Below are positions 7,681-53,472 of a stretch of 64,000 bases of DNA, one piece after another (the first letter of the stretch is position 1; every line of letters starts with the position of its first letter). Under the pieces are notes generated by a model. That model was not told where the DNA came from. It was given only the letters and a program-made list of their open reading frames with translations, and made no database searches. The stretch is from NCBI RefSeq assembly GCF_003386535.1, contig NZ_QTTN01000034.1:1-64000 (forward strand), read 5' to 3'. The DNA comes from Paenibacillus taihuensis. Lineage in GTDB: Bacteria > Bacillota > Bacilli > Paenibacillales > Paenibacillaceae. The position numbers and the translations under genes were made by a program.

Positions 7681-8336
7681 ATCGAGTAGGAGGGGGCTGC
7701 TAGCCCCCGACCTCTCACACCACCGTACGTACGGTCCCGTATACGGCGGTTCGTCAAACTTGCCCAACCATGACCACACCATGACCACATGGTTGATGGG
7801 AGGAGTGGCGGTTCATGCCGGAGCCGATTAAGCCCACTTTTATGAGCCGTTCGGGCTTCACCCTTCTTTCTCATAACGTGTTCCAAATTTGGAATTCTGC
7901 TCTTGAACACCTGCTCACGAAATCCCCGCTTATTTCCACTGTCTGACGTTCGGTCCTTCCGTATTTCTACGTACTATGACCTCTGCTGACTTCTGCCAGT
8001 GTAGTCTTGCCTTCCGACAAGGGTTATTCCGAAGGAACACTTGGGCCTTCTTCACTTTCTGACAGATCTCCCCGGGTAAGAGCGATAACTTTCATTCCAT
8101 GTACCCGCCCAATTTACTGCTGTATCCCTTGGCTGTATGGGGCTTTGTCTTGTCTTGGAGACTCGCCCAGATACAACAGCCTCACCTTGGGTTCGTGGTC
8201 CTCGGGTCGGAACTTTGCCGCCGGCTTCCTTCAGATCCCACCTCACGGTCGGCACCCTTGCCTTAGGCTAACGGTTGGTACAGCCAACCTCCGTTCAGGA
8301 CTTTCACCTTAGAGTTATCGCCCATGCCGGGCGCAC
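7681..8336 (-). mobile_element. ORF-less group IIC intron
   Basis: On the minus strand this 656-base element starts GTGCGCCCGG (8336-8327), a standard bacterial group II intron 5' end, and ends in CTACTCGAT at 7681. A 34-base domain V lies at 7719-7752: ACCGCCGTA pairs with TACGGTGGT-type sequence around a bulge. A domain VI hairpin (7692-7708) precedes the 3' end. Internal segments such as TTACCCGGGGAGATCTG and GCAGAAGTCAGCAGAGGTCA resemble group IIC ribozymes like the Oceanobacillus iheyensis intron. It sits 4 bases past the bofC terminator hairpin, the usual target of class C introns. Domain IV holds no reverse transcriptase: only about 250 bases lie between domain III-like sequence and domain V, with no long reading frame. 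It is therefore a deletion derivative, perhaps still splicing-competent. Confidence 0.88.
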
Positions 8337-52096: not shown

Positions 52097-52127
52097 AAAA
52101 AAGACTGCGGATTTCTCCACAGTCTCT
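52097..52127 (-). terminator. Terminator after speD
   Basis: AGACTG.GGA pairs with TCC.CAGTCT on the minus strand (52102-52125), followed by TTTTTTT. Confidence 0.88.
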
Positions 52128-52149
52128 TTACTATCCGATCAAAGAAATG

Positions 52150-52548
52150 CTACACAAGCTCTACTTGCTTCATGTCAGCTTCAACGACTTGCAGCTCACC
52201 CATACCGCGAACAAGCTTCTTAGCGTGCATTACTTTTGGTTTCAATACAGACATCATGTAGTCGATCGCAAGCTGCGGATCAACTGTTTCTCCACATGTA
52301 TAACAATCAAGAGCAGCGAAACCTCTCTCAGGATACGTGTGAATGGAAAGATGACTTTCTGACAGCAGTACGAGCACAGTTGCACCTTGTGGTTCAAATT
52401 GTTTTGCCTGCACAGAAAGTACGGTTGCACCGCACGCTTCAGCAGCTTCTACCATTTGGGCTTGTAAAAATTCCGCGTTGTTGAGCAGGTCAAAATCTAC
52501 ACCCCAAGTGTCAACAGCAACGTGTCTTCCGAAAGTTGAGTATTCCAT
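52150..52548 (-). CDS. speD: S-adenosylmethionine decarboxylase proenzyme
   Basis: SpeD decarboxylates SAM to supply aminopropyl groups for spermidine. The ATG at 52548 (MEYSTFGRHVAVDTWG) gives 132 residues of the short prokaryotic class. It has the self-cleavage site LLSESHLSIHTYPE, where the Ser becomes the pyruvoyl group, and CGETVDPQLAIDYMMS with the catalytic Cys. A further upstream part of the frame overlaps the leader and is not family-like. It lies between hemA and an unknown gene and is preceded by a structured leader. Confidence 0.95.
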   Translation of the reverse strand: MEYSTFGRHVAVDTWGVDFDLLNNAEFLQAQMVEAAEACGATVLSVQAKQFEPQGATVLVLLSESHLSIHTYPERGFAALDCYTCGETVDPQLAIDYMMSVLKPKVMHAKKLVRGMGELQVVEADMKQVELV

Positions 52549-52598
52549 CTTTCGGTTCCCCCTTCCTAGGAATAAAATGTTTTGTAATTTCATCCGCT

Positions 52599-52673
52599 AG
52601 GACCTACGTCATTCACTGCCCGAGGGACTTTCCGCTCGCAACATTACCATGTCCTGAGTGAATCCTGGTTCCT
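52599..52673 (-). ncRNA. Structured leader RNA of speD, possible pseudoknot
   Basis: On the minus strand AGGA(A)CC/GGTCCT (52667-52673 with 52599-52604) and ATTCACT/AGTGAAT (52657-52663 with 52611-52617) enclose GGAC (52651-52654), CGAG (52635-52638), GTCC (52625-52628) and CTCG (52621-52624). GGAC/GTCC and CGAG/CTCG interlock in a-b-a'-b' order, an H-type pseudoknot. The element is 50 bases before the speD start. I do not match it to a known riboswitch. Confidence 0.5.
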
Positions 52674-52695
52674 AATTGTCTTTGCAACGAAAATA

Positions 52696-52724
52696 AAAAT
52701 AACATCTATCACCCAGAAATGCAA
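52696..52724 (-). promoter_or_regulatory. Candidate sigma-A promoter of speD
   Basis: TTGCAT (52719-52724) and TATTTT (52696-52701) are separated by exactly 17 bases on the minus strand. Transcription would start near 52690, so the leader would be about 140 bases and contain the structured element. Confidence 0.5.
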
Positions 52725-52833
52725 CAGTTTTTTTTGGAATATTTTTTTGGACCATGCTGCGCAAATTCCACTTTTCAACGTATGTTCGAACTGGACTTTT
52801 TGTGTGCGCCCTTACTCGTCCAAGCGCAATAAA

Positions 52834-52858
52834 AAAAGCCGCATTTCTGCGGCTTTCA
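52834..52858 (-). terminator. Terminator after the unknown gene upstream of speD
   Basis: AAAGCCGCAG pairs with a matching CTGCGGCTTT-type arm (GCCGCA/TGCGGC) and is followed by seven T on the minus strand. Confidence 0.88.
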
Positions 52859-52881
52859 GAGGTTCAATTATGAATTGTTTT

Positions 52882-53472
52882 TTAAGCTTCGAGCTTAAAC
52901 AAATTGCGCGAATATAGAGCTAGGCGTTCATCGATAATAGCGATTTGTTCTTTATCTTTGCATTGATTCCGCAAATCGAGCAGCTGGTTGATCGCGCCGC
53001 GCGCGACTTCGATCTCCTTCTCCACATCCATAATACGAAACGCTGCTTCGAGCTGGCCAACCGTGTCTTTGAATTCAAAGACGACTCTTGATTCACCACC
53101 GCGAATTTCGACAATTTTGCGAACAGTACCTTCAGTATAATGATAGGTCATCGTGTAGTTCGGATAAATACGGTTAACGATTGCATCGCCGCGGAATACG
53201 GATACCGCTTTGCGCATTGCGTTCGTAAGCTTCGGATGCATAATGCGGCAGGATAGCTCGCATTCGAACCGATCTTGGTCACGCTCGAAAGTAAGGCGGA
53301 CTTCTTCTTGTCCTGCGTCGTCCTCGAGAACCACCTCGTGATTGCCGTTATCCAGCACCCTCACTTGTTGTTTAATGTGCTGGTCTTCAAAAAACCGGAC
53401 AAATCCCGCCATCTCTTCAGCCGTTAATTGCAGAGAAGCTTTGACATACTCTGTGGCTATCCGCTGAGCCAT
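52882..53472 (-). CDS. Uncharacterised protein, possibly lineage-specific
   Basis: A 196-residue soluble protein I cannot assign. It starts with an ATG after GAGGAG at ideal spacing, so it is surely translated. No signal peptide, membrane segment or catalytic motif is visible. The N-terminal half is rich in beta-type alternation (EVVLEDDAGQEEVRLTFERD, YPNYTMTYHYTEGTVRKIVEI), and the C-terminal about 60 residues are helical and charged (VEKEIEVARGAINQLLDLRNQ), perhaps a coiled coil. Its own terminator follows. It stands between engB and speD, away from any functional partner; function unknown. Confidence 0.75.
   Translation of the reverse strand: MAQRIATEYVKASLQLTAEEMAGFVRFFEDQHIKQQVRVLDNGNHEVVLEDDAGQEEVRLTFERDQDRFECELSCRIMHPKLTNAMRKAVSVFRGDAIVNRIYPNYTMTYHYTEGTVRKIVEIRGGESRVVFEFKDTVGQLEAAFRIMDVEKEIEVARGAINQLLDLRNQCKDKEQIAIIDERLALYSRNLFKLEA

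Follow-up and report, generated by a model that had tools for sequence, protein, structure and literature searches.

In riboswitches of the SAM-III (SMK box) class, which precede metK and exert translational control in the Firmicutes, an anti-SD strand pairs with a G-rich Shine-Dalgarno (SD) sequence. In H-type pseudoknot riboswitches such as SAM-II and preQ1-II, the SD sequence is taken up by the pseudoknot. A spermidine riboswitch has been described as a variant of SAM-I, with 13 examples in Gram-positive bacteria acting by transcription termination ahead of several polyamine genes, including speD (Salvail et al. 2023, PMC10853860). The odc1 motif, found by comparative genomics, is a pseudoknotted leader preceding the ornithine decarboxylase gene and is described together with a uORF (Brewer et al. 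2021, PMC8632094). In Trypanosoma brucei, dcAdoMet has been reported as a translational signal (PMC6221367). The adjustment of S-adenosylmethionine decarboxylase in the Bacilli is little described in the accessible text of the open-licence literature searched.

We analyzed a 64,000-nt stretch of Paenibacillus taihuensis DNA (contig NZ_QTTN01000034.1, hereafter the window), in which speD, encoding S-adenosylmethionine decarboxylase, is preceded by a structured leader. Like the SMK box, this leader is probably translational and carries a candidate anti-SD strand complementary to a G-rich SD sequence; it differs from the SMK box in its gene, conserved sequence and layout, and the leader in the window matches no Rfam family when E-values as high as 10 are admitted. 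With SAM-II and preQ1-II it shares the idea of an SD-capturing pseudoknot, but there is no Rfam match to these families, and gene and sequence differ. It resembles the SAM-I variant in its occurrence in Gram-positive bacteria, its place ahead of a polyamine gene and its presumed feedback logic (PMC10853860). However, the speD element has no match to an Rfam family of the SAM clan and is not recognizable as SAM-I by fold or sequence; no terminator precedes speD by eye, the hairpin before the SD being followed by a G-run rather than a U-run; and the element targets only speD, in contrast to the several genes preceded by that variant. The odc1 motif is likewise a pseudoknotted leader of a polyamine gene, but differs in structure, in its gene (ornithine decarboxylase) and in the uORF described with it. 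Control of prozyme in T. brucei is similar in that translation within the pathway is tuned by AdoMetDC and dcAdoMet, and dissimilar in concerning a eukaryote and a different gene (PMC6221367).

A search of the window against Rfam 15 at gathering thresholds gave no match in the speD leader, and at E up to 10 over positions 52100-53000 the matches listed all lay outside 52549-52676. Diverse speD leaders from other genomes gave no family match at 20 loci (gathering threshold), 7 loci (E up to 1) and 16 loci (E up to 0.5), the few Rfam matches listed being located elsewhere or far below threshold. These results agree with the sequence-only reading of this locus, which had assigned the element to none of the known riboswitch classes. 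No description of the element was found in the accessible text of open-licence papers, supplements aside; the structured-RNA surveys do not mention speD in the main text available, and the core sequence string was found in no open-licence paper. Elsewhere in the window, three Rfam matches (RF02001, RF01998 and RF00029) mark parts of a group II intron at 7681-8252 on the minus strand.

The speD leader element in the window

The element is located on the minus strand at 52676-52549, immediately upstream of the speD start codon at 52548. The core element extends from 52676 to 52594 and is followed by the expression platform as far as the start codon, the platform in its entirety being 52602-52529. 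The features, all on the minus strand, are as follows.

52724-52696, promoter-like site: -35 TTGCAT (52724-52719), 17-nt spacer, -10 TATTTT (52701-52696), by eye
52594-52676, core element: P1-J1/2-P2 and the Paenibacillales apical domain, matched by model R2 with 82 bits
52667-52674, P1 5' arm UAGGA-A-CC, partner 52604-52598; both sides changed in 3 of 7 P1 pairs among 89 distinct leaders
52657-52663, P2 5' arm AUUCACU; both sides changed in 5 of 7 P2 pairs, 96.5% of cells paired
52651-52654, 5' strand GGAC of pseudoknot helix a, partner GUCC (52628-52625)
52635-52638, 5' strand CGAG of pseudoknot helix b, partner CUCG (52624-52621)
52622-52627, C-rich candidate anti-SD strand UCCCUC, complement of GGGGGA (52562-52557) by sequence inspection; types of apical strand and SD are coupled
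52611-52617, P2 3' arm AGUGAAU; covariation count over 89 distinct leaders
52605-52610, J2/1 internal-loop strand GACGUA, facing AGG (52666-52664); comparison of leaders
52598-52604, P1 3' arm GGUCCUA, common to P1 and the anti-P1 hairpin; covariation and hairpin folding
52564-52602, predicted anti-P1 hairpin UCCUAG-C-GGAUGAAAU ... AUUUUAUUC-CUAGGA, reaching the SD region; minimum free energy (MFE) fold of the leader, and distinct segments
52558-52567, SD region AGGAAGGGGG, 9 nt upstream of the start codon; sequence
52529-52555, start-codon hairpin CCGAAAG-AUG...-CUUUCGG; sequence, by inspection
52150-52548, speD, S-adenosylmethionine decarboxylase, 132 aa; SpeD matches in relatives

The sequence-only reading had proposed, at 52599-52673, two stems enclosing an H-type pseudoknot, behind a promoter with a 17-base spacer. 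Both nested stems, P1 and P2, are present in the minus-strand sequence and both covary in related leaders (see below), the two pseudoknot helices interlock in the a-b-a'-b' order that had been claimed, and the promoter-like site stands upstream with that spacing, which recurs with a similar -10 sequence in the leaders of relatives that were inspected. The proposed span leaves a few bases of P1 outside it and omits the expression platform, and the element is much larger than first described. In relatives' leaders, the 5' arm of the start-codon hairpin varies between A and G with G-U pairs kept (by inspection). The J2/1 strand is almost constant, as GACG[UC]A, in leaders with a GGUCC arm, and is replaced in those with AGAUCC.

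Taken by itself, the window sequence contains nothing significant. The folding z-scores of the leader against shuffles were -0.99 and -0.77, no better than chance, and shuffling the apical loop 2000 times with dinucleotide content preserved gave a 4+4 bp pseudoknot in 278 cases. When the rest of the leader was included, the MFE fold contained the alternative, anti-P1 hairpin instead of P1. Read on the plus strand, the span folded with a z-score of -0.13; this orientation was rejected because speD lies on the minus strand. The case for the element is made by comparison, conservation being decisive.

Conservation and covariation of the P1/P2 form

A SpeD match was obtained in 38 of 39 relatives, and all 30 speD leaders read from relatives (24 distinct sequences) carried the element, in support of a cis-regulatory RNA that is conserved in homologous leaders. 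In an alignment of 15 of these leaders, the outer parts were almost invariant and the apical domain was variable. A scan with a loose pattern, in a collection with named organisms, returned at least 120 stretches, with Paenibacillus, Cohnella, Brevibacillus, Aneurinibacillus, Ammoniphilus and Chengkuizengella among the matches listed. A strict script recognized 186 copies (138 distinct) preceding a SpeD N-terminus among 220 loci, the loci it missed were chance pattern matches, had a speD gene whose N-terminus is longer or altered, or were truncated at the end. A class-wide pattern allowing up to three mismatches (130 of 250 genomes) gave many chance matches, judging from a reversed-pattern control; the pattern matches kept had no more than one mismatch, together with a few weaker ones that were found to be unrelated (e.g., L092-L096).

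Model R2, representing the P1/P2 form, matched 144 of 398 Bacilli genomes and, in a draw across the phylum, 3 of 299, two of them from the family of the window organism and one from another class (L292). SpeD also follows a further 60 R2 copies, mostly weaker (59 from the Bacilli search and one from the phylum draw). Alignment A4 comprises 93 rows of P1-form leaders, 89 of them distinct, fitted to R2 after five antisense low-score rows of A3 had been dropped before counting; all 93 rows run into the G-R-H motif of SpeD. In A4, 95.1% of cells pair, and both sides of a pair are changed in 35 cells, against 5.8 on average in 500 shuffles, none of which reached that count, and 0-7 in slid controls. 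Compensation is displayed by the P2 variants AUUCAC/GUGAAU, AUCUAC/GUAGAU and CAUCC/GGAUG. Most rows fit P1 with a bulged A; in 17 of 89 rows, those with UAGGAUCC/GAUCCUA, P1 takes a second, symmetric register in which a U-A pair replaces the bulge. On this comparative evidence, P1 and P2 are real helices, and speD is preceded by a conserved structured leader with covariation, as is expected of a riboswitch.

The pseudoknot fared differently. The apical loops of the Paenibacillales were compared in 59 distinct sequences. Helix a (GGAC/GUCC) has at least 3 bp in 53 of them and 4 bp in 13, helix b (CGAG/CUCG) has at least 3 bp in 56 with no compensatory pair noted, and 51 loops have 3 bp or more in each helix. 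The fourth pair of helix a, which is C-G in the clade of the window and A-U in 10 loops with GGAA/UUCC, provides the sole compensatory switch; most Paenibacillus have a C-U mismatch at this position. Thus, of the four helices in the sequence-only reading, the two stems pass the covariation check that had been set and the pseudoknot helices show this single switch only. The pseudoknot is confined to the Paenibacillales, as a local version of an apical domain that takes another form in other Bacilli. Locus L279 was omitted from the apical-loop counts and from the apical/SD counts, duplex energies and upstream-ATG counts given below, as its start codon had been misassigned.

A second form with a near-invariant core

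Twenty speD leaders were fetched from genomes missed by R2. Sixteen of them (L317-L332) carry a near-invariant core and four (L313-L316) do not. In the sixteen, the core lies inside a variable P2, without P1, and reads CUUAAAGGGUUAGGACCUC-N3-GGACUAACUU[UG]CCCCCGUGG with small changes; the near-invariant consensus of this second form is CUUAAAGGGUURGGACCUC-N3-GGACUAACYUUCCCCCGUGG. Many P1 forms hold the core as well. In an independent MAFFT alignment of 28 copies of the core form (A5, which was not fitted to the model structure), both sides were changed in 5 of 6 P2 pairs and in 34 cells, compared to 12.7 in shuffles (0 of 500 as high); the count of pairs with both sides changed was not unusual (97 of 500 shuffles). 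P3, within the core, hardly varies and is without covariation.

Model R3, built on the core, matched 197 of 398 Bacilli genomes, with one match in each genome listed, and 3 of 214 in the phylum draw, all three of them Bacilli. The genome of the window organism gave no R3 match. The pseudoknot of the window is the Paenibacillales replacement of the core, the apical domain having been rebuilt there; P1/P2 persist in the Paenibacillales, Brevibacillaceae and others with a different sequence in place of the core. In family f31 (L287 and L307), a long GC-rich insertion takes the place of the three-base loop of the core, indicating that this loop tolerates insertion.

Association with speD

PF02675 (AdoMet_dc) was found in 292 of the 398 Bacilli genomes, and one or both models marked 264 (77 by both, 67 by R2 only and 120 by R3 only). 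PF02675 was present in 262 of these 264 element-bearing genomes, and 30 genomes had PF02675 without the element. Of the two exceptions without PF02675, one (G300, bases 8-72) abuts a contig end and the other (G299) is a marginal match with an E-value of 0.009. We checked the position of 109 core matches, those of the 197 R3 genomes that appear in both the core and the AdoMet_dc lists, and every one was located on the contig and strand of the AdoMet_dc match, 51-88 nt upstream of it. No copies were found before other polyamine or SAM genes, and the phage records searched for the core gave no match. By these searches, the element precedes speD almost exclusively. SpeD sequences of two distinct types (MEYSTFGRH- and MDTMGRH-like) follow the same core. 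As a structured leader of a single gene that occurs in 262 of 292 sampled AdoMet_dc-containing Bacilli genomes and is absent from Rfam 15, it offers a direct entry point to polyamine feedback and lends itself to reporter assays in laboratory strains of Bacillus.

On the Anoxybacillus amylolyticus plasmid pDSM15939_1, the core is flanked by speD and a gene for glyceraldehyde-3-phosphate dehydrogenase. This 258 kb record (L341), labelled a plasmid, carries the housekeeping block polA-mutM-coaE-gap-speD-nrdR-dnaI.

A predicted expression platform

In P1-form leaders, the P1 3' arm sequence UCCUAG has an alternative complement in CUAGGA at the edge of the SD region, and every one of the 67 distinct segments analyzed was predicted to fold into the resulting anti-P1 hairpin. 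Excluded from this analysis were L253, leaders without UCCUA or UCUUA, leaders with a GGUCCC arm, and the core-only leaders. Swapping the 3' halves among leaders weakened the hairpin from a native mean of -13.1 to -10.1 kcal/mol, the native combination being better in 66 of 67 cases. As predicted pairings that share the P1 3' arm, P1 and the anti-P1 hairpin are mutually exclusive, and an expression platform of mutually exclusive structures, a further mark of riboswitches, was accordingly found in all 67 distinct segments. The anti-P1 hairpin includes part of the SD (UAGGA). In family f27 (L263, L266, L288 and similar loci), UGAGC, which directly precedes P1, could pair with its complement GGCUCA in the loop of the anti-P1 hairpin as a possible further contact.

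The C-rich strand of the apical domain, which reads UCCCUC in the window and CCCCC or CUCCUC in other leaders, complements the G-run of the SD. An SD of the GAGG/GGAG type accompanied all 18 CUCCUC combinations compared to 14 of 173 with other apical types, as counted with a loose SD pattern that includes GGAG and uncorrected for relatedness. The calculated duplex of CUCCUC with SDs of its own type averaged -14.6 kcal/mol, versus -9.4 to -11.7 kcal/mol with other types; the other apical types had no comparably clear preference, several swapped apical/SD pairings equalling native strength. Nested folding of the core-only leaders placed the C-run on the SD with a probability of at least 0.9 in 9 of 16 and of at most 0.36 in the other 7. 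The observations that bear on a possible placement of the SD within a ligand-stabilized helix are the complementarity and the coupling of types.

Proposed mechanism and alternative explanations

We propose that SpeD synthesis is set at the level of translation by an RNA regulator in the speD leader, most probably a riboswitch, and we give this reading a probability of roughly one half (about 0.52). When enough product is present, the ligand would hold the P1-J-P2 domain together and block the anti-P1 hairpin, and the C-rich strand would pair with the SD as a pseudoknot, switching translation off. Without ligand, the anti-P1 hairpin would win, leaving the G-run free 9 nt before the AUG and translation on. 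The polarity is itself presumed, and the presence of UAGGA of the SD inside the anti-P1 hairpin would suit the opposite one. Going by gene association, we favor decarboxylated SAM among the candidate ligands, since the element was found ahead of no other polyamine or SAM gene; it is attractive also because the use of the element for speD only contrasts with the SAM-I variant, which serves several polyamine genes. Spermidine and SAM are possible ligands as well. To our knowledge, decarboxylated SAM would, if true, be a new riboswitch ligand. The boldest version of the proposal, which we consider doubtful, is that of a riboswitch used throughout the class Bacilli for decarboxylated SAM, the exclusive product of SpeD, in which an SD-capturing pseudoknot would stop SpeD translation, and of which the Paenibacillales would have kept P1/P2 and rebuilt the apical domain.

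The main rival is binding of a protein to the near-invariant core. SpeD or another Bacilli protein would bind the leader and block or open the SD, as in ribosomal-protein leaders; the near-invariant sequence of the core P3 and of the Paenibacillales P1/P2, together with a single dedicated target, are typical traits of a protein site, and the AdoMetDC protein of T. brucei represses translation of its paralogue prozyme (PMC6221367). However, the same core precedes both SpeD types, and its replacement in the Paenibacillales, Brevibacillaceae and others while P1/P2 stay would not be readily allowed by a single protein site. We regard protein-mediated control as rather unlikely. Less probable again is an element that works independently of any ligand, such as a fixed translation brake, an enhancer, a thermosensor or an mRNA-stability structure: the SD-proximal hairpins are stable by themselves, but exclusive structures sharing the P1 arm (in all 67 segments) and a near-invariant core exceed what a fixed hairpin would need.

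Control by a leader peptide would require a uORF, and a short AUG frame (ATG ... TGA, by eye) does cross the apical domain of the window, with ATG triplets found upstream of the start codon in 76 of 92 P1-form and 12 of 16 core-only leaders. Yet the remaining 16 and 4 leaders, respectively, have no upstream ATG, and the frame shifts or closes among relatives (L017, L026 and L029); a short upstream frame was rejected as a general feature given the leaders lacking any upstream ATG, and uORF control is very improbable. That the inverted repeats formed by the stems act as a DNA operator instead of RNA is the least credible explanation, since the distance between the arms varies by tens of bases, compensatory changes keep the pairs, and the element is located downstream of the promoter-like site.

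Genomes with more than one AdoMet_dc homologue

The genome of the window organism has two PF02675 matches, the best with an E-value of 8.6e-36, and a second, weaker AdoMet_dc homologue is present in many genomes, including many Paenibacillaceae. Several genomes of family f1 have only the weaker AdoMet_dc type (E about 1e-13) and no element. In family f21 (L041-L068, Aneurinibacillus-type), most genomes have two speD genes, each under its own element; one element of the pair combines a CUCCUC apical strand with a GGAGG-type SD, and the other CCCCC with GGGGG.
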